Source: an uncultured Oscillospiraceae bacterium
GTDB taxonomy: Bacteria > Bacillota > Clostridia > Oscillospirales > Oscillospiraceae
Reading direction: 5' to 3'
Length of the DNA stretch: 36,283 nt
NCBI GenBank assembly: GCA_944385885.1
Contig: CALWYY010000015.1
Coordinates: forward strand, 1 to 36,283
This document shows, piece after piece, positions 14,358 through 35,125 of this stretch. Below the pieces are notes generated by a model, which was not told the origin of the DNA, ran no database searches, and was given only the letters and a program-made list of their open reading frames with translations. The stretch's first letter is position 1, and each line of letters starts with the position of its first letter. Position numbers and translations under genes: made by a program.

Positions 14358-15812
14358 TCAGTCCCGGCCGCCGTTTTTCAGCAGGTCGTACCGGATGTCC
14401 CACAGCTTCTGGGACAGGTCCACGTAGTACGTGTGGGGGTTGTCGAAACGCCGGACCTCCTCCCAGAGCGTGTCCAGCTCCCGGGCGCAGTAGGCTCGGA
14501 TCTCCTCCAGGGAGGGCAGGCTGTATACCAGCTCCCCGCCCTGGAACACCGGCACCAACAGCTCCCGGGCGGCGTAGCCGGTGAGGGTCTTGCGCTTCCA
14601 GGTGGCCTCCGGGTCGAAGATCTCCAGGGGCTGGGTGTCGTCCACGGCCTCATCCCGAAGGCACAGGTAATCCGCCAGGGCCTTGCCCGTCTCCCGGCGG
14701 TAGAACCGGTAGAGCTTTTTAAAATGAGGAATGGTGATCTTGGAGACGTTCTCGCTGATCTTGATCTTAGGGGCGACCGACCCGTCCGGCCGCTCCACCC
14801 CCACCAGCTTGTACACCCCGCCGAAAACCGGTTCGCTCCGGGCGGTGATCAGCCGCTCGCCCACGCCGAAGGCGTCGATCCGCGCGCCTTGGAGCAGCAG
14901 GTCCTGGATGATGTACTCGTCCAGGGAATTGGAGCAGGTGATGGTACACTCCGTCCACCCGGCGGCGTCCAGCATCTCCCGGGCTTTGCAGGTGAGATAG
15001 GCCATGTCCCCGGAGTCCAGCCGGATGCCGCAGCGGCGGATGCCCAGGGGCCGGAGCACCTGGTTAAAGGCGCGGATGGCGTTGGGGATACCGGATTGAA
15101 GGGTGTTGTAGGTGTCCACCAGCAGCACCGCGTTGTCCGGGTACATCCGGCAGTAGGCCAGAAAGGCCTCGTACTCGGAGTCGAACATCTGCACCCAGGA
15201 ATGGGCCATGGTGCCCAGGGCCTTCACCCCGTAGCACTGGTCGGAAAGGGTGCAGGCCGTGCCGGAGCAGCCGCCGATGTAGGCGGCCCGGGCGCCCAGG
15301 ATAGCCCCGTCCGGGCCCTGGGCCCGGCGGGAGCCGAACTCCATTACCGGCCGGCCACGGGCCGCCCGGACGATCCGGCTGGCCTTGGTGGCGATGAGGG
15401 ACTGATGGTTCACCGCCAAAAGCAGGTAGGTCTCTATCAGCTGGGCCTGGATGGCCGGGGCGCGCACGGTGATCAGCGGCTCCCGGGGGAAGACCGGCGT
15501 GCCTTCCGGCACCGCCCAGATGTCCCCGCTGAAGCGGAAATGCCGAAGATACTCCAAAAACCCCTCGTCAAACAGGCCCCGGCCCCGAAGATAGGCGATG
15601 TCCTCCGGCTCAAACCGCAGGTTGCGGATATACTCCACCACCTGTTCCAGCCCGGCGGCGATGGCAAACCCGCCCCCGTCCGGCACCTGACGGAAAAAAA
15701 GGTCAAAGTAGGCGATCCGGTCCCGGTATCCCTGGCGGAAAAAGCCGTTGCCCATAGTCAGCTCATAGAAATCGCAGAGCATGGACAAATTCTGGCTGTT
15801 GCGCACATTCAT
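14358..15812 (-). CDS. pncB: Nicotinate phosphoribosyltransferase
   Basis: This enzyme makes nicotinate mononucleotide from nicotinate and PRPP with ATP use, in the Preiss-Handler NAD salvage pathway, and is cytosolic. The start at 15812 gives 484 residues opening MNVRNSQNLSMLCDFYELTM, the typical family N-terminus. A longer TTG start at 15845 lies inside the -10 box and is rejected. Family landmarks are the DFYELTMGNGFF opening, PVMEFGSRRAQG with the substrate-binding Ser/Arg, VLLVDTYNT, GIRLDSGDMAYL and the SNSLDEY/FGVGERL region. The size fits the long bacterial class. A promoter TTGCAT-16-TATAAT drives it divergently from the dehydrogenase gene. No nicotinamidase gene is evident in the window. 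Confidence 0.96.
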   Translation of the reverse strand: MNVRNSQNLSMLCDFYELTMGNGFFRQGYRDRIAYFDLFFRQVPDGGGFAIAAGLEQVVEYIRNLRFEPEDIAYLRGRGLFDEGFLEYLRHFRFSGDIWAVPEGTPVFPREPLITVRAPAIQAQLIETYLLLAVNHQSLIATKASRIVRAARGRPVMEFGSRRAQGPDGAILGARAAYIGGCSGTACTLSDQCYGVKALGTMAHSWVQMFDSEYEAFLAYCRMYPDNAVLLVDTYNTLQSGIPNAIRAFNQVLRPLGIRRCGIRLDSGDMAYLTCKAREMLDAAGWTECTITCSNSLDEYIIQDLLLQGARIDAFGVGERLITARSEPVFGGVYKLVGVERPDGSVAPKIKISENVSKITIPHFKKLYRFYRRETGKALADYLCLRDEAVDDTQPLEIFDPEATWKRKTLTGYAARELLVPVFQGGELVYSLPSLEEIRAYCARELDTLWEEVRRFDNPHTYYVDLSQKLWDIRYDLLKNGGRD

Positions 15813-24783: not shown

Positions 24784-25548
24784 ATGGAGATCCGGCGGTT
24801 TCGCATGTTTTATTTCAGCCCCACGGGAGGCGTCAAGGGGGCGGCGGAGGCCCTTTCCCAGGCGTTTGCGGCCCGGACGCCCAGCCTGGAGGATATCACC
24901 CTGCCGGGGGTGTGCGCGGAGCTGGGCGGGGACGAGCTGGCGGCATTTTTCTTCCCGGTGTACGGGGGGCGGGTGCCGGGACCCTGCCTGGCCCGGCTGG
25001 AGACCCTGCGGGGGACGGGCACCCCGGCGCTGCTGGCGGCGGTATACGGCAACCGGGCGGTGGACGATGCCCTTCTGGAGATGAAGAACGCCCTGTCCGC
25101 CCGGGGGTTTCGGACGGTGGCGGCGGCGGAGATCGTGGCGCCCCACTCCCTGAACACCAAAATCGGAGAAGGCCGGCCGGACGGGAAGGACCGGGAGGCG
25201 ATAGCCGCCTTTGCCGCCGGAGTGGAGAGGAAGCTGGCCGGCGGGGAGCCGGAGGAGGTGGAGGTGCCGGGCAACATGCCCTACCAGGATTTTGGGGGCA
25301 CGCCGCTGAAGCCTACGGGCGGGAGGGGCTGTACCGGCTGCGGCCGGTGCGCGGCCGCCTGCCCCGCCGGGGCCATTCCGCCGGACCGGCCCCGGGAAGT
25401 GGATAAGAGCCGGTGCATCTCCTGTATGCGCTGCATACGCGTCTGCCCGGCGGGGGCGCGCTCGGTCCCGCTGCCGGTGCGTGCGGCAGTAGCGGCGGCC
25501 CTGGTGCAGAAATGCGCCGGGCGCCGGGAGATAAAATTTTATCTTTAG
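24784..25548 (+). CDS. EFR1-type flavodoxin/ferredoxin
   Basis: This 254-residue cytosolic electron carrier has an N-terminal flavodoxin-like domain. The phosphate-binding loop (FSPTGGVKGAAEAL, residues 11-24) and the FFPVYGGRVPGPCL region bind FMN in relatives. A C-terminal 2[4Fe-4S] ferredoxin domain has Cys183/186/189/193 and Cys211/214/217/221, both in CxxCxxCxxxCP form. Proteins of this layout are called EFR1 family ferredoxins in Clostridia. The gene has a GGAAGGAGG site seven bases before ATG 24784 and lies 66 bases after the carboxypeptidase gene. Redox partners are not visible here. Confidence 0.9.
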   Translation: MEIRRFRMFYFSPTGGVKGAAEALSQAFAARTPSLEDITLPGVCAELGGDELAAFFFPVYGGRVPGPCLARLETLRGTGTPALLAAVYGNRAVDDALLEMKNALSARGFRTVAAAEIVAPHSLNTKIGEGRPDGKDREAIAAFAAGVERKLAGGEPEEVEVPGNMPYQDFGGTPLKPTGGRGCTGCGRCAAACPAGAIPPDRPREVDKSRCISCMRCIRVCPAGARSVPLPVRAAVAAALVQKCAGRREIKFYL

Positions 25549-25678
25549 CGGGAAATACCGGGAAATAGAGGCCGGTGCTAAGGGAACCGGCGGCGCTCCG
25601 GACCGGCGACCCGGGAGCCGGGGCCCGTCTGCGGGCCGGGATCTCGTTTTCTTGGCGCCGCGGGTTTTCACAGGCACA

Positions 25679-25717
25679 CAGGCAGGCCCCCATTATGGGG
25701 GCCTGCCTGTGCTTTTT
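25679..25717 (+). terminator. Rho-independent terminator
   Basis: A 14-bp perfect stem (25679-25692 with 25696-25709) is followed on plus by TGCTTTTT (T run 25713-25717). It is placed for the EFR1 transcript and abuts the stop of the converging MerR-hydrolase gene (25716). Confidence 0.85.
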
Positions 25718-26618
25718 ACAGCTCGTCCGTGTATTCCATCAGCCGGTCCAGGGCTGCGGCGCAGGGAAGCATCTGGAAGTTGTAGTTGATCTGCATCTGG
25801 GCCAGGCCCTGCCGGTGTTCGCTTTCCGTGGTGGAGTTGACCCCGTCTTCCGCAATGGCCACCCGAAACCCCCGGTAAAAGGCCTCAATGGCCGTCTGGG
25901 CCACACATACGTCGGTCCGCCAGCCGGTGAACAGGAGGGTGCGCGCCCCCAGCCCGTCCAGGACCGTTTGCAGGCAGGTGTTGACAAAACCGTTGAAGAG
26001 GTTTTTGTTTACGATGAAATCCCCTGGCTGGGGGGCCAGCTCCTGGATGATCTGGGCACCCCAGGTTCCTTCCATCATATGGTCGTTCCACAGCTCCAGC
26101 TCCGGATCGCCCTGTTTGTGACAGTCGCAGACGTAGATGATGGGGATGTTCCGCCGGCGGGCGTCCTGGTACAGCTCCGAAAGAACGGGGATCAGCCCCT
26201 CGATCCGGCGGCAGGGCAGGGCGCCGCCCTGCAGGATATCGTTTTGCAGGTCTATGCCAATGACGGCCAGGTGCCCGGCGGCCCGGGACTGGACCCCTCC
26301 GGCCCCCAAAATGGAGTCCAGCGCCGCATAAGCCCGGCGATACTCCTTTAGTGCCTGCTCCACCACGTGGAACTGCTGTTCCATGGCGGCCGCAACCCGC
26401 TCTGGCGGGGCGTCCAGCAGCCGGCTGATCTCCCGGAGAGAAAACTTCAGATCCCGGAAATAGCGGATGTCCCGCAGCCGGGACAGGTCCCCGCTGGAGT
26501 ACAAGCGGTAGCCGGATTCCGTGCGCAGGCTGGGCCGGCACAGGCCCAGCTTTTCATAGTGCCGGATGGCCTTGACCGTAAGGCCGGTAATGGCGGCGGC
26601 CTGTTTGATGGTAGTCGC
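25716..26618 (-). CDS. MerR helix-turn-helix fused to a cysteine hydrolase (isochorismatase-like)
   Basis: The frame runs from a MerR winged-helix domain (TTIKQAAAITGLTVKAIRHY, then EKLGLCRPSLRTESGYRLY and a SSGDLSRLRDIRYFRDLKFS helix) through a coiled link into a full cysteine hydrolase. The hydrolase triad is intact: Asp in VIGIDLQND, Lys in IVNKNLFNGF and Cys in TDVCVAQTA. I estimate about 300 residues. There is no ATG/GTG/TTG at the expected place. AAAGGAGG (26634-26627) is followed 8 bases later, in frame, by GCG at 26618. The first canonical start in frame is TTG at 26504, inside the helix-turn-helix. It probably regulates its own operon and may bind the hydrolase substrate as inducer. 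Confidence 0.8.
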   Translation of the reverse strand, partial: ATTIKQAAAITGLTVKAIRHYEKLGLCRPSLRTESGYRLYSSGDLSRLRDIRYFRDLKFSLREISRLLDAPPERVAAAMEQQFHVVEQALKEYRRAYAALDSILGAGGVQSRAAGHLAVIGIDLQNDILQGGALPCRRIEGLIPVLSELYQDARRRNIPIIYVCDCHKQGDPELELWNDHMMEGTWGAQIIQELAPQPGDFIVNKNLFNGFVNTCLQTVLDGLGARTLLFTGWRTDVCVAQTAIEAFYRGFRVAIAEDGVNSTTESEHRQGLAQMQINYNFQMLPCAAALDRLMEYTDEL

Positions 26619-26626
26619 TGCAACCG

Positions 26627-26634
26627 CCTCCTTT
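26627..26634 (-). promoter_or_regulatory. Strong ribosome binding site AAAGGAGG without matching start codon
   Basis: On the minus strand AAAGGAGG is followed 8 bases later by GCG (frame of MerR) and 3 bases later by TTG (26623-26621) in a different frame. It shows where translation was meant to begin and that something is irregular. Confidence 0.75.
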
Positions 26635-26644
26635 CCGCGGCAGA

Positions 26645-26674
26645 CGCCCGGGCCGGCGCAAGCCGGCCCGGGCG
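26645..26674 (-). terminator. 13-bp hairpin between the alcohol dehydrogenase and MerR-hydrolase genes
   Basis: Arms 26645-26657 and 26662-26674 pair perfectly around a 4-nt loop. No T tract follows on minus. It sits just upstream of the AAAGGAGG site, so it may limit readthrough into the last gene. Confidence 0.5.
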
Positions 26675-26692
26675 CGGAGGACAGGTTGGTTT

Positions 26693-27748
26693 TTACCTCT
26701 CGTAGGGGGTGATGGCCACTTTAATGCAGCCGTCCAGGTGCTTTTCAAAGATCTCATAGCCGTGCATGATGTCGTTCAGGGGCATTTTGTGGGTGACCAG
26801 GGGCCGGGTGTTGATCTTGCCGCCGGCAATGAGGTCCACCAGCATCTCGTCCTTGGAGGCGTCCACACCGCCGGTCTTGAAGATCAGGTTCTTGCCGTAC
26901 ATGCTGGGCAGGGGGAGGATCTGGTCCTCCTCGTACATGGCGATCAGGGAGACCACGCCGTTGGGCCGGGCCAGGCGCCAGGCCATCTCAAAGGTGCCGT
27001 CCTTGCCGGCCATCTCGATGACGGAGTCGGCGCCCCGGCCGTTGGTGAGGCTCTTGACCACTTGGTATACGTCGTCCTTTTTGGTGTTGACAAACACGTC
27101 CGCCCAACCGTTGTCCAGGGCCACCTTGCCCCGCTCGTCGTGCCGGTCCACCGCCACAATATGGGCCGGGCCGAACAGGCGGGCGCACATCATGGCCGTG
27201 TAGCCGCAGGGGCCGCAGCCCAGGACCACCACAGTGTCGCCGGGCTTGATCTCCGCCAGCTCCGCGCCGAAATAGCCGCTGGGGAGAATGCAGCTGACCA
27301 TAAGTACGTCCTCGTACTCCAGGGAATCGGGGATCTTCACCAGCCCGTTATCGGCGATGGGTACCCGGACGTACTCCGTCTGGCAGCCGTCGATCCGGCA
27401 GCCCAGGTACCAGCCGCCCTCCACGCAGTTGTTGACAAAGCCCCGTTTGCAGAAGAAGTACTCCCCGCAGAAGGTCTCTACGTTGGCCACCACCCGGTCG
27501 CCGGGCTTGATCTTTTTGACGGCGCTGCCCACGGCGACTACCTCCCCGGCAAACTCGTGGCCCAGGATGGTGTTCTCCTTGGCAATGGGCACCGCCCCGT
27601 TGCGGATGTGGAAATCGCTGGTGCAGATGCTGGACATGCCGACTTTTACAATGGCATCCCGGGGATCCAGAATGGTGGGGATGTCTCTCTCCTCAAAGCG
27701 CAGGTCTCCTTTACCGTGGTAAACGACACCCATCATTTTTCCTGCCAT
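26693..27748 (-). CDS. Zinc-dependent alcohol dehydrogenase (medium-chain family)
   Basis: This 351-residue NAD(P)-dependent dehydrogenase has catalytic zinc ligands Cys42 (SSICTSD) and His64-Glu65 (GHEFAG), with Cys153 at the position of the third ligand. The Rossmann motif VVVLGCGPCGY covers about 173-183. The structural zinc loop reads CGEYFFC...C (Cys94, Cys100, Cys108), so the second of the usual four Cys is Tyr97. The substrate is unknown; the family oxidises sec-alcohols, polyols and related compounds. It starts at 27748 after AGAAAGGTGG, and lies 59 bases after the YczE-type gene and about 70 before the MerR-hydrolase gene on the minus strand. It is probably in the same transcript as these. 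Confidence 0.93.
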   Translation of the reverse strand: MAGKMMGVVYHGKGDLRFEERDIPTILDPRDAIVKVGMSSICTSDFHIRNGAVPIAKENTILGHEFAGEVVAVGSAVKKIKPGDRVVANVETFCGEYFFCKRGFVNNCVEGGWYLGCRIDGCQTEYVRVPIADNGLVKIPDSLEYEDVLMVSCILPSGYFGAELAEIKPGDTVVVLGCGPCGYTAMMCARLFGPAHIVAVDRHDERGKVALDNGWADVFVNTKKDDVYQVVKSLTNGRGADSVIEMAGKDGTFEMAWRLARPNGVVSLIAMYEEDQILPLPSMYGKNLIFKTGGVDASKDEMLVDLIAGGKINTRPLVTHKMPLNDIMHGYEIFEKHLDGCIKVAITPYER

Positions 27749-27784
27749 AACCAGTAACCACCTTTCTGTAAATAGTCAGACCGC

Positions 27785-27801
27785 GCCGCCTGCCAGGCGG
27801 C
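27785..27801 (-). terminator. Small hairpin between the YczE-type and alcohol dehydrogenase genes
   Basis: GCCGCCT (27785-27791) pairs with AGGCGGC (27795-27801) around 3 bases, immediately after the YczE stop. There is no T run on the minus strand. It is more likely a processing or partial-stop element within an operon than a full terminator. Confidence 0.35.
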
Positions 27802-27807
27802 GGGCGG

Positions 27808-28470
27808 TCATTTTGCCTCGTATACGATATCCTCGTTGCCGGACCACTTGTTGACGATAGGCGCCATTTTGTTCAGCACCGGCCCCAGCACCGGCCCCAC
27901 CAGGAACATGCCCACCAGGGTGCCCACATGGACTACGCCGCCCATGATCAGGGCGCCCACTACCATGATGGCGTCGAAGATCATCCGCCACCAGCGAAGC
28001 TGCATCTTCAGGGTCTTGGCCATGAACTGGTTGAAGGCGTCGGAAGGCCCGCAGCCAAATTCCGCGGACTGGTAGAAGCCCAGGCCAACGCCCAGGGCGA
28101 GGGTGCCGGTGACCACCAGGATGATCCGGGTGACCAGCGTGGGCTCCGGCCCAATGACCGCTACGATCCAGGGATCCAGGATGGTGCAGAAGGTGCCCAG
28201 CGTGAAGGTGTACAAGACGGTGCCGATGTGGATGCCTTTCCGGTAGACAATGAGGATCACCACGAAAAACAGGATGTTGAAGTAGTTCATGGCGGTCCCG
28301 AATTGGACGTTCAGGACGTTGCCCAGGCCCTGCACGAAGGCGGTGACCGGGTCACTGCCCAGGGTGGCCAGGACGAACGCCTCCGCGCCGTAGGCGGTGA
28401 TGATCACCCCTACCAGGATGACGATGCACCGGACCACTATGCTGCGTACGGTGTACTTGCCCTTACCCAT
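27808..28470 (-). CDS. YczE/YyaS/YitT-type integral membrane protein
   Basis: This 220-residue protein has about five to six membrane helices and matches the YczE/YyaS/YitT family. It shows AYGAEAFVLATLGSDPVTAFVQGL near the start, GFYQSAEFGCGPSDAFNQFM in the middle and a conserved GTLVGMFLVGPVLGPVLNKM ending. The family is of unknown transport activity, and some members are thought to be permeases or regulators of export. The start at 28470 follows AAAAGGAGG with seven bases of spacing. It lies between the first cysteine hydrolase (90 bases upstream) and the alcohol dehydrogenase, so uptake of the operon's substrate is a reasonable guess. Confidence 0.85.
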   Translation of the reverse strand: MGKGKYTVRSIVVRCIVILVGVIITAYGAEAFVLATLGSDPVTAFVQGLGNVLNVQFGTAMNYFNILFFVVILIVYRKGIHIGTVLYTFTLGTFCTILDPWIVAVIGPEPTLVTRIILVVTGTLALGVGLGFYQSAEFGCGPSDAFNQFMAKTLKMQLRWWRMIFDAIMVVGALIMGGVVHVGTLVGMFLVGPVLGPVLNKMAPIVNKWSGNEDIVYEAK

Positions 28471-28560
28471 AAAAAATCCTCCTTTTCCGTCTCCCCGCGA
28501 AGCGGGGGCTTTTCCCCTCCCCGACTGCTGCTGCTGCCCTCCCCCTGGAAGGGCGTGGAC

Positions 28561-29163
28561 TTAGAACTTTTGGATGACCTTGTCGCTGGTGGTGACGGAG
28601 CCGTACTGGGTCTCCAGGTCCCAGAGGGTGGACTCCTGCTCCCGGGGGCCGGTGGCCCGGACGCAGTCGGTGGGTACCACTACGTTGTAGCCCAGGAAGA
28701 AGGCGTCGTGGCAGGTGGAGCGCACGCAGATGTTGGTGACCACCCCGGTCACCACCACCGTCTTGACCCCCAGCTCCCGCAGCACCAGGTCCAGATCGGT
28801 CTGGAAGAAACCGCTGAAACGCCGTTTCTTGATGCAGTAGTCCTGCTCCAGGGGAGCCAGCTCGTCGATGACCTGGGCGCCCCAGGTGCCGTCGATGCAG
28901 TGGGGTGTGCGCTTGTCAAATTCCTTGTCGTACTTCCCCGGCCGGTGGCAGTCGTTGATGTAGATGATGGGGAACCCGTGCTCCCGGGCCTTGGCGATGA
29001 GGTTGGCGATGGGGGCCACGGCCTCCACGCCCTCCTTGAGGACCATGCTCCCGCCCTCCTTGCAGAAGTCGTTGAGCATATCCACCACCAGAATGGCGGG
29101 GTTTTCCACGGTGAAGTTCTTGCCGTCGTCTACAAAGTGTTCCGAAAATCCTTTTTCCGCCAT
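28561..29163 (-). CDS. Cysteine hydrolase, isochorismatase-like
   Basis: This 200-residue cytosolic hydrolase of the isochorismatase superfamily has the Asp-Lys-Cys triad. Asp is in the ILVVDMLNDFC strand, Lys in IKKRRFSGFF and Cys in VTNICVRST. The loop INDCHRPGKYDKE keeps Asp and His but lacks the second His of nicotinamidases, so pyrazinamidase/nicotinamidase activity is unlikely. N-carbamoyl-type or other amide substrates are more likely. The start at 29163 has AAAGGAGGAGG just upstream. A longer frame reaching 29583 covers a promoter and is rejected. It is first in the minus-strand run with the YczE-type, alcohol dehydrogenase and MerR-hydrolase genes. Confidence 0.9.
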   Translation of the reverse strand: MAEKGFSEHFVDDGKNFTVENPAILVVDMLNDFCKEGGSMVLKEGVEAVAPIANLIAKAREHGFPIIYINDCHRPGKYDKEFDKRTPHCIDGTWGAQVIDELAPLEQDYCIKKRRFSGFFQTDLDLVLRELGVKTVVVTGVVTNICVRSTCHDAFFLGYNVVVPTDCVRATGPREQESTLWDLETQYGSVTTSDKVIQKF

Positions 29164-29247
29164 AAAACCTCCTCCTTTTCCAGCCTCCCGCCGGAGTCCG
29201 GGGCGCGCTCCCGGCCGCCGGCGCCGTCCAAAATAAGGGCTACTATA

Positions 29248-29277
29248 ATTATCATATAGAAAAGATATGCTTGTCAA
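29248..29277 (-). promoter_or_regulatory. Promoter of the cysteine hydrolase operon
   Basis: On the minus strand, TTGACA (29277-29272) and GATAAT (29253-29248) are separated by 18 bp, in an AT-rich stretch. A 19-bp spacer, typical for MerR-activated promoters, would give the weak hexamer ATAATT. Confidence 0.7.
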
Positions 29278-29359
29278 GGTGGGGAAATTCATTAAGTTTA
29301 CCCGTGGGGAAGAGTTAAGCGAGAAAAAATTTGGATATTTTGACGAAACGCAGGGGGCG

Positions 29360-29441: not shown

Positions 29442-30230
29442 TCACATGGCGCCCTGTTTCCGGCGCAGGGAGAGGCAGTCGGCAATCATGGCAATAAACT
29501 CCGAATTGGTGGGCTTGCCTTTTATGTTGGAGACGGTGTAACCGAAGAATTTCTGCAGGGTTTCGATATCGCCCCGGTCCCATGCCACCTCAATGGCGTG
29601 GCGGATGGCCCGTTCCACCCGGCTGGGGGTGGTGTTGAACTTCCGTGCCACCTCCGGGTAGAGGACCTTGGTAACGGCGTTGATCACGTCCATGTCCCGG
29701 ATGGTGAGGATAATGGCCTCCCGAAGATACTGGTATCCCTTGATGTGGGCGGGCACGCCGATTTCATGGATGATATCGGTGACCACCGATTCCAGGGAGG
29801 GTTCCGGCCGCGGCTGGAAAGGGACGGGCCGGGACACCAGCGCCGGCCGGGGCTGGCGGGAGGGGGCAAACTGACGGATGCGCTGGAGCAGCTCCGGGGT
29901 GTCGCAGGGCTTGGGTATGAAATAGCAGGCGCCAAGCTCCGCGCTTTCGGCCACCACGTGGGAATTGACGAAACCGGTCAGCACCAGCACCGCCGGCGTG
30001 CGCTCCGTATCGGGCAGCTTTCGCAGGACCCCCAGCCCGTCCAGCTTGGGCATCACAAGCTCCAGCAGCACCACGTCCGGGTCCAGCTCCGTGATCAGGG
30101 AGAGGGCCTCCATCCCGTCCATGGCGCAGCCGGCAACCTCCATATCCTCCTCCTGCCCCAGCACGTCGGACAGCAGGAGGCGGAGGTCCTCGTTGGGGTC
30201 GGCAATCAGCACGCGGATCTTGGTTTCCAT
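29442..30230 (-). CDS. spo0A: Sporulation response regulator Spo0A with non-canonical receiver
   Basis: This 262-residue protein is a full-length Spo0A. The C-terminal DNA-binding domain is highly conserved, with [20 protein letters not shown] and [20 protein letters not shown], plus [14 protein letters not shown]. The receiver is unusual: the acid pocket reads IADPNEDL (Asp11, Pro12) where Bacillus Spo0A has ADDN, and the phospho-acceptor segment is [12 protein letters not shown], with Glu57 where Bacillus has Asp56. Thr85 and Lys107 are kept. The codon is GAG and so not a translation artefact. Start 30230 (METKIRVLI) follows GGAGGAAATG; upstream codons are non-coding. It has its own promoter and tandem 0A-box-like sites upstream. 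Phosphorylation by a classical phosphorelay seems impaired. Confidence 0.95.
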
Positions 30231-30304
30231 AACATTTCCTCCGAAATTATGATATACAACGGGTGCTGATCTTTCTTTACGCTTTATACCGTCGAAACGT
30301 CTAT

Positions 30305-30333
30305 AATTTACCATGAATAGACGGCGCTTGCAA
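30305..30333 (-). promoter_or_regulatory. Promoter of spo0A
   Basis: On the minus strand, TTGCAA (30333-30328) and TAAATT (30310-30305) have a 17-bp spacer. TGG directly before the -10 makes it an extended -10. No clear sigma-H promoter is seen. Confidence 0.55.
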
Positions 30334-33789: not shown

Positions 33790-33918
33790 CGATTTTATAT
33801 AAATTAACTTACGAATTATATGAACAAACTTAAAATTTTTGTCTCGGAGGGGAACCCGGGAGCGGCGGGAGCCGGGGGAAAGGGAAACGTGGGGCGGCTG
33901 CGGCGGGCAGGGGGCTTA

Positions 33919-33948
33919 GAAAAAGGCGGGCGCCTTGGGCGCCCGCCT
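33919..33948 (-). terminator. Rho-independent terminator of spoIVB
   Basis: An 11-bp stem (33924-33934 with 33938-33948) around a 3-nt loop is followed on minus by T residues (complement of 33920-33924). It lies directly after the spoIVB stop (33955), so spoIVB is not read through into the RHH-clpB operon. Confidence 0.85.
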
Positions 33949-33954
33949 GCCGCA

Positions 33955-34989
33955 TCAGGCGGCCCCGGCCAGGGCGGCCTGGCCGGTCTGGAGCATATTT
34001 TCAATGGAAATACCGTATCCTTTGGTGGGGTCGCCCACCAGCACATGGGTGACGGCGCCCACCAGCTTGCCGTCCTGGAGGATGGGCGAGCCGCTCATTC
34101 CCTGGACGATACCGCCGGTGATGGCCAGCAGTTTCGGATCGGTTACGGCGATGGTGAGCTGGCGCAGGTCATCTCCGTCCCGGAGAACGCGCAGGATCTC
34201 CACGTCGTACTCCTGGGGCCCGCCCTGTCCCACGGTGGCCAGGATGGTGGCCGGGCCGGTGTGGATCTCCGCCTCCGCCGCCGCGGGGACGGGGGAGGAG
34301 GTTCCCAGAGGCGTCTGGGCCCGGCCGAAGATGCCGCAGACGGTGTTTTGCTGGATGGTGCCCAGCGGGTCCCCGGAGGAGGGGACGCCGCAGAGCTCAC
34401 CCGGCTGGCCGCGCTGGCCGGCCACCACGCCGGATACGGAGGCGGGGGTGATGGTGCCCTGGGTAATGACCATCAGCTCACCGGTCTCTGGCAGGCAGAC
34501 CCCGTGGCCCAGGGCGCCGTAGGCCCCGGTGGCGGGGTCCCAGAAGGTGACGGTGCCGATCCCGGCCACGCTGTCCCTGAGCCACAGGCCCAGCTGCCAG
34601 GCGCCCCGGGCGTTTTGCAGGGGGGTGATGGTACACCGGAAGGACTCCCCGTTCCGAGAGGCCTCCACGGTTACCGGGGACCCGGTGAGGGAGCTCACCG
34701 CCCGGAGGAAGTCCTCGCCGCAGGAAATCGGCCGGCCGTCCAGGGAGGTGATGCGGTCGCCGGGCAGGATCCCGGCGTCTTCGGCGGGGGATACGCCGCC
34801 GGAAGCGGTCTCTACCTGGGCCAGCCCGGAGACGATTACGCCCTGGGAAGACAGCTGGATGCCCACGGCCTGCCCCACTGGCACCAGCATGTCCCCCGGA
34901 GCCAGGGCCTGGGCGGAGGGGCCGCCGCAGATGGCGGCGGCAAGAAGAAAACACGCCGTCCCGGCGGTTATTTTTTGAAAAATCTTCAT
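33955..34989 (-). CDS. spoIVB: Sporulation peptidase SpoIVB
   Basis: This 344-residue serine peptidase of family S55 acts in the space between forespore membranes. In Bacillus it cleaves SpoIVFA to start sigma-K processing. A signal/anchor helix (about 1-28) is followed by a PDZ domain (about 45-120, AGILPGDRITSLDGRPI) and the peptidase domain. His162 (LGHGV), Asp284 (VTDP) and Ser299 (QGMSGSPI) fit the catalytic set, and the conserved AVTHVLVGDPTKGYGI stretch follows. It is shorter than Bacillus SpoIVB (about 425), mostly in the N-terminal part. On the minus strand a CATACT-like sequence at 35033-35028 resembles a sigma-G -10, but no convincing -35 was found. Confidence 0.96.
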   Translation of the reverse strand: MKIFQKITAGTACFLLAAAICGGPSAQALAPGDMLVPVGQAVGIQLSSQGVIVSGLAQVETASGGVSPAEDAGILPGDRITSLDGRPISCGEDFLRAVSSLTGSPVTVEASRNGESFRCTITPLQNARGAWQLGLWLRDSVAGIGTVTFWDPATGAYGALGHGVCLPETGELMVITQGTITPASVSGVVAGQRGQPGELCGVPSSGDPLGTIQQNTVCGIFGRAQTPLGTSSPVPAAAEAEIHTGPATILATVGQGGPQEYDVEILRVLRDGDDLRQLTIAVTDPKLLAITGGIVQGMSGSPILQDGKLVGAVTHVLVGDPTKGYGISIENMLQTGQAALAGAA

Positions 34990-35125
34990 ATCGTCTGTTC
35001 CTCTCCGATGGTTTTGCGCGCCCTGCCAGTATGTGTGGATCGGTCAAAAACAAACGCGAGAATTATGCCCTCTGTTTCCACCGGCATACTTCCCGCGCTC
35101 TGCGAACGTTGCCGCCGCGCATGAT

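Follow-up and report, generated by a model that had tools for sequence, protein, structure and literature searches.

The window analysed here is a stretch of 36,283 nucleotides from an uncultured Oscillospiraceae bacterium (assembly GCA_944385885.1, contig CALWYY010000015.1), one contig of a 1.89 Mb assembly in 187 contigs that is estimated to be 89% complete. It holds a four-gene unit, entirely on the minus strand, that encodes in order a stand-alone isochorismatase-family cysteine hydrolase (herein referred to as H1; 200 amino acids; 28561-29163; PF00857, 174.6 bits, 2.6e-51), a YczE/YitT-type integral membrane protein (220 amino acids; 27808-28470; PF02588, 29.7 bits against a cut-off of 24.3), a zinc-dependent dehydrogenase of the medium-chain dehydrogenase/reductase type (351 amino acids; 26693-27748; PF08240 and PF00107) and a MerR-isochorismatase fusion (25716 to ~26618; PF13411, 63.8 bits, and PF00857, 136.9 bits), the last preceded by a Shine-Dalgarno-like AAAGGAGG (26627-26634, minus strand). 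An earlier note on this DNA had placed four genes on one strand behind the promoter TTGACA-18-GATAAT, and this stands: family profiles identify the genes, and the promoter-like element 5' of H1 (29277-29248, minus strand), with 11/12 matches, is the best among four promoter-like sites of the region. A degenerate MerR-type dyad, CTCTTCCCCACGGGTAAACT (29295-29314, minus strand), and the gene for Spo0A (29442-30314) lie further upstream. The claim that the operon ends at one terminator region fares less well, since the T-tract of the strong hairpin at 25677-25711 belongs to the plus strand, which makes the hairpin a canonical terminator for a plus-strand ferredoxin-type gene, not clearly one for the operon. 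That gene (24784-25548), after which the strong plus-strand terminator follows, encodes a flavodoxin/ferredoxin-like protein scoring 73.7 bits against an EFR1-family cut-off of 75. GC-rich hairpins also occur between some of the four genes, and a single transcript covering all of them is putative.

The unit recurs in other genomes with varying composition. Its exact order is found again at an Oscillibacter locus (L035), in a second genus, and a stand-alone isochorismatase-family hydrolase adjoins the fusion in all 12 loci with a visible neighbour, including L026, from a different family of the order, whose fusion has an identity of just 28% and whose hydrolase is divergent from that fusion. 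A CodB-type NCS1 permease is adjacent in eight loci, or nine when contig linkage in genome G1114 is counted. The order NCS1-H1-fusion is seen in L036 (Oscillibacter), L037 (Oscillospiraceae) and L039 (Dysosmobacter), and is followed by the dehydrogenase in L045 and L046; L024 (genome G003, same genus as the window) reads YczE, dehydrogenase, NCS1, RutB-like hydrolase, fusion; L038 (Peptococcaceae UBA6096) has NCS1 and a RutB-like hydrolase divergent from the fusion; and L025 shows the end of H1, then the fusion. G1114, from another family of the phylum, carries ribosomal protein genes, a PAP2-like gene, NCS1 and H1 at one contig end and the fusion, rpoB and rpoC at another, and contig linkage joins its permease to the fusion, with the module between rplL and rpoB. 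No NCS1 permease is encoded in the window; the same genome has one, in a second copy of the module on contig C166 (NCS1 permease, H1, fusion), whose H1 is 90% and whose fusion is 63% identical to the window's. The conserved core is hydrolase plus fusion, usually with a CodB-type NCS1 permease, YczE and the dehydrogenase being optional additions. The module has a sparse distribution, within Oscillospiraceae and in certain other lineages of the phylum: the fusion occurs in 5/400 genomes of a family sample, only in the window's own genome in an order sample of 394, and as full-length matches in 2/398 genomes of a phylum sample. The ratio of nonsynonymous to synonymous substitutions (dN/dS; simple Nei-Gojobori counts with Jukes-Cantor correction) between window and L035 is 0.18 for H1, 0.10 for YczE, 0.15 for the dehydrogenase and 0.22 for the fusion; the window genes are under purifying selection, and this together with the recurrence in other genomes indicates that the unit is more than a chance arrangement. 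A spirochaete locus (L042) matched at 23% over the hydrolase part only and was not used. Beside the Peptococcaceae fusion (L038, 4142-6245) lie an Asp/Glu/hydantoin racemase-like gene and a carboxylate-type transporter, both named from their sequences.

The N-terminus of the window's fusion is a MerR winged helix-turn-helix (PF13411, 1.6e-17; PF00376, 6.2e-14; both above cut-off) that matches the MtaN and TipA structures. Its hydrolase domain has the catalytic residues D148, K230 and C263 and the metal ligands D190, H192 and H205 (P0002 numbering). Across the 12 fusions aligned, the catalytic Lys and Cys, the metal ligands D, H, H and a pocket Trp are invariant, WPDH or WNDH is present in most, and the full set of Asp-Lys-Cys and metal ligands is intact in 11, the remaining one (L026) having Asn for the catalytic Asp. 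The model of the fusion (predicted local distance difference test, pLDDT, 88.4) has a hydrolase domain that matches 3hb7 (Z 28.6; 178 residues, root-mean-square deviation 1.3), with 3eef, its best solved relative by sequence, at Z 27.4 and nicotinamidases at Z of about 26. Equivalog cut-offs are reached neither for PncA (NF008623, 37.8 against 174) nor for RutB (TIGR03614, 61.3 against 377.95). On its domain content we interpret the protein as a MerR regulator with a fused effector domain, and an isochorismatase-type hydrolase in that position appears to be new; a limited literature search found no description of a MerR-isochorismatase fusion.

An intact active site raises the question of whether the effector domain is also an enzyme. 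It is tentatively conceivable that the fusion is a one-component regulator of a new kind, a MerR activator with a catalytically competent cysteine amidohydrolase as effector, that is closely paired with a stand-alone hydrolase of the same superfamily and both senses and consumes its inducer. Such a trigger enzyme would destroy its own inducer, and exhaustion of the compound would shut the module off. This is the explanation favoured below in a stronger form, and we give it a minority of our confidence. The residues intact in 11/12 fusions, the superposition of the model on active hydrolases at Z 24-28 and dN/dS below 1 all speak for it. Residue conservation, however, does not prove activity, and the L026 fusion, in which the catalytic Asp is replaced while metal ligands and dyad are kept, suggests binding or sensing rather than catalysis there.

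The dyad ties the fusion to the module, as far as can be read from its placement. A MerR-like dyad, ACCTTCCCC-N2/3-GGGGAAGGT, stands 5' of the module's first gene in most upstream regions examined, that of L026 with its fusion of just 28% identity included. The classic MerR promoter has its dyad within a 19-20 bp spacer between -35 and -10, and in L045, L046, L026 and G1114 it lies inside a 19-bp spacer between a TTGAC-type -35 and the -10 (read from the sequences). In L005, L024, L036, L037 and L039 a clear dyad lies 18-19 bp upstream of the -35 (local shuffle p <= 0.0003), and the window's has the same geometry, 17 bp upstream of the -35, with 13/18 matches to the module dyad; its score was reached by 0/4000 local shuffles, with p = 0.075 when all 350 bp of the upstream region are considered. 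The site of L035, also upstream of the -35, is weaker (12/18, local p 0.004), and in L038 ACCTTACCCTGGGTTAAGGT lies between the divergent genes. Because the consensus derives from these very loci, the p-values express consistency and are not an independent test; L026, L038 and G1114 (13/18) were scanned after it had been set, and matched. Several unrelated chance sites reach at least 14/18 in 173 kb, and the dyad is therefore convincing by its repeated place 5' of the module and not by score alone. Within the window's genome there is one perfect match to CCTTTCCCNTAGGGGAAGG, at C166 5' of the second copy, and every other site has three mismatches, such sites being about as frequent as in the reversed control. 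A 14/18 site in front of the L024 YczE gene, to which no promoter was assigned, was left out of the count.

H1 and the fused domain both exceed the PF00857 cut-off and align their catalytic Asp, Lys and Cys with those of PncA. In H1 these are D28, K113 and C146, accompanied by PncA-like metal ligands D71, H73 and H88 (alignment with E. coli PncA), and the D-x-H...H pattern is present in 8/8 H1 proteins and in all fusions aligned. The pocket Trp of PncA (Trp68 in M. tuberculosis) is Arg in 8/8 H1 proteins and is kept in all fusions. The earlier note, which saw no nicotinamidase signature ligands, is corrected on this point: all three metal ligands are present, and only the pocket Trp is missing, only in H1. 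The metal site nevertheless does not make H1 a nicotinamidase, because its score against the PncA equivalog NF008623 (60 bits) is far below the cut-off of 174 and because 3eef shares the D-x-H...H pattern, as read from the alignment. The best NCBIfam matches of H1 are the RutB and BiuH families (RutB, TIGR03614, 107.8 bits against a cut-off of 377.95); RutB is devoid of the metal ligands, as are the RutB-like hydrolases of L024 and L038. Its nearest solved sequences are 3hb7 (7.6e-33) and 3eef (7e-31), and the case for an N-carbamoylsarcosine amidase consists of similarity to 3eef and 1nba. No residue-level claim is drawn from the model of H1, whose confidence is modest (pLDDT 75.9, falling below 50 in part of the metal-ligand region). 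A Rut-type pyrimidine pathway was set aside, there being no rut neighbours and an equivalog score far below cut-off, as was a housekeeping nicotinamidase role for H1, a separate PncA-like gene being present on contig C41.

Two more specific ligands can be weighed against these residues. In a vitamin B3-type salvage, the ligand would be nicotinamide or a similar N-heteroaromatic carboxamide, which would suit the PncA-like ligands, the WPDH/WNDH of most fusions, the roles of the metal and of Trp68/Phe13 in PncA (PMC3025910), the nucleobase-type permease of the module and a PncB-like gene at 14358-15812 (read from its translation). We consider this very unlikely, in view of the Arg at the PncA Trp position in every H1, the low PncA equivalog score, the other PncA-like gene on C41 with its D-T-H...HC and the occurrence of D-x-H...H in 3eef, a structure titled N-carbamoylsarcosine amidase. 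A second option is a creatinine or hydantoin route, quite unlikely in our judgement, in which H1 would be an N-carbamoyl amino acid amidase of the carbamoylsarcosine type and the permease would import creatinine, hydantoin or a relative. In its favour, 3eef ranks second among the solved relatives of H1 and first among those of the fusion, the NCS1 family includes hydantoin permeases, the invariant H1 Arg could bind a carboxylate and an anaerobic N-methylhydantoin degrader has been described (PMC4417704), papers on creatinine otherwise offering background only. Against it, no module has a ring-opening enzyme, the name of 3eef was taken from its title without a check of experimental support, and hydantoinase B (PF02538) was not found in the ~89% complete genome, on which ground a hydantoinase route was rejected.

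Five module NCS1 proteins score 320.7-332.3 bits against the NCBIfam cytosine permease family NF008241, whose cut-off is 326 (two above it at 329.6 and 332.3, three just below at 320.7-323.3), and the module NCS1 protein matches the CodB structure 7qoa at 2.6e-59. A limited search of the literature on cytosine permeases with cysteine hydrolases offered nothing beyond one metformin paper, from what reads as a different context, which lists CodB and an isochorismatase-type guanylurea hydrolase for plasmids of degraders. No NCS1 match at E 1e-60 was found in the L035 genome, which has YczE instead (a missing contig being possible), and this suggests that YczE can replace the permease. The YczE-like protein stays below the YczE equivalog cut-off (NF052291, 74.6 against 205), and its orthologues in L024 and L035 are 83-86% identical with dN/dS 0.10-0.16. 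The dehydrogenase likewise reached no NCBIfam equivalog cut-off (L-threonine, TIGR00692, 154.5 against 458.35; scyllo-inosose, NF041097, 160.4 against 450). Among ten genomes searched, close orthologues occur only in the five whose module includes the gene, and there inside the module. The alcohol oxidation proposed in the earlier note is a putative step; no close orthologue was found in the four permease-H1-fusion genomes tested (L036, L037, L039 and G1114).

We hypothesize, and think it rather probable, that the module serves the uptake and hydrolysis of some small nitrogen compound, with the MerR fusion as its activator. The compound would be imported by the CodB-type NCS1 permease, or in the window's version probably by the YczE protein; H1, a metal-site cysteine hydrolase, would cleave an amide or carbamoyl bond in it; and the fusion would bind the dyad 5' of the first gene and activate the module once the imported compound, or a product close to it, occupies its hydrolase-like pocket. 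The best reading is hence a module for inducible uptake and deamidation, under a regulator that senses the inducer and may also hydrolyse it. It is built on the gene content, the co-conservation, the dyad and the conserved catalytic and metal residues. From these we infer DNA binding, activation, ligand and chemistry, along with a transport role for YczE and a role for the dehydrogenase. The small catabolic pathway with a fused sensor that the earlier note had suggested survives in this form, since uptake, hydrolysis and a sensor fit the neighbourhood, the dyad and the ligand site; its unit of four families does so only in part, the exact order recurring in L035 but YczE and the dehydrogenase lying outside the core, where NCS1 is usual instead.

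Several observations weigh against this reading. The replacement of H1 by a RutB-like hydrolase that is devoid of metal ligands in L024 and L038 implies that the chemistry may vary. Most Oscillospiraceae loci have the dyad upstream of the -35 and not in the spacer, which is unusual for MerR activators, and the window's own dyad is degenerate. No in-frame ATG, GTG or TTG lies near the good Shine-Dalgarno of the window's fusion (26607-26634): the in-frame codons after AAAGGAGG are GTT GCA GCG ACT ACC ATC, none a canonical start, at a place where 10 of the 12 other fusions have a start codon; in L037 and L039 an ATG stands six codons 5' of that place. Candidate causes are a sequencing error, recent decay or unusual initiation, of which the first two may likewise apply to the dehydrogenase, in which the second structural-zinc Cys, present in all four orthologues, is replaced by Tyr (CGEYFFC). 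The missing start, the lost Cys and a degenerate dyad beside the perfect one at C166 together raise the alternative that the window copy is a decaying duplicate while the C166 copy does the work; we regard this as unlikely, given that all four frames are open with dN/dS of 0.10-0.22, that the same gene order stands in L035 and that an error in the assembly, a draft of 187 contigs, could explain the missing start codon.

The C166 copy adjoins genes that we take, from their sequences, to be PGK, MgtE and an Mrp-type ATPase (only the permease having been profiled), and the L024 module of G003 sits at the same genomic place. The simplest reading of this inferred history is a single module that, in the genome of the window, came to be split or duplicated. 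Further isochorismatase-family genes were seen in genome G000: one in L065 (contig C19, 1673-8136), beside a BCCT-like transporter, a molybdenum-hydroxylase-like fusion protein and a sigma-54-type activator (these three read from sequences); one in L066 (C177, 776-13547), with a BCCT-like transporter, an APC-like permease, an Fe-S protein, two amidohydrolases, a RidA-like protein and a molybdenum-hydroxylase-like protein, a set that may form a second cluster for heterocycle degradation; and two in tandem in L068 (C85, 2-1216), one cut by the contig end. Elsewhere in the window, a plus-strand open reading frame (33820-35124) matched no Pfam or NCBIfam family, and a codon scan favours the overlapping minus-strand frame 33955-34989.

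If the favoured reading is true, the fusion would be an enzyme turned sensor, a regulator built from the superfamily of the pathway that it appears to control and, if catalytically intact, a self-resetting switch. YczE proteins would be linked to a swap with a nucleobase-type permease, making a transport role testable, and a gut-bacterial degradation route would have been missed by current annotation. The dyad is a simple handle for finding targets of the regulator.

Among known systems, the fusion resembles the MerR activators of the BmrR, Mta and TipA type in its N-terminal helix-turn-helix and, at four loci, in a dyad within a 19-bp spacer; it differs in its effector, a hydrolase of the isochorismatase fold whose active site is intact, and the module differs in the many loci with a dyad upstream of the -35. 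PncA shares the fold, Asp-Lys-Cys and D-x-H...H ligands, and with the fusion also the pocket Trp, whereas H1 has Arg at that position and falls far below the equivalog cut-off. H1 is like the RutB ureidoacrylate and BiuH biuret amidohydrolases in its C-terminal half, including the SGFF region, but RutB has no metal ligands and the module no rut genes. By sequence, both hydrolase domains have their nearest solved relatives in 3hb7 (an Alkaliphilus isochorismatase-like hydrolase with no named function) and 3eef (Thermoplasma), which for the fusion are also among the nearest by fold; 3hb7 and 3eef are stand-alone proteins. The module permease resembles CodB (NCS1; 7qoa), scoring at about the cytosine permease equivalog cut-off, yet is linked to amidohydrolases and not to cytosine deaminase, and it is absent from the window. 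A parallel in design is offered by the MocR regulators (PMC4944035), a number of them with a link to yczE genes: they too fuse a DNA-binding domain to an enzyme-fold sensor, and although they are GntR-type with an aminotransferase fold and divergent from yczE, whereas here a MerR domain and a cysteine hydrolase are co-oriented with it, they provide a precedent for enzyme-fold sensors.

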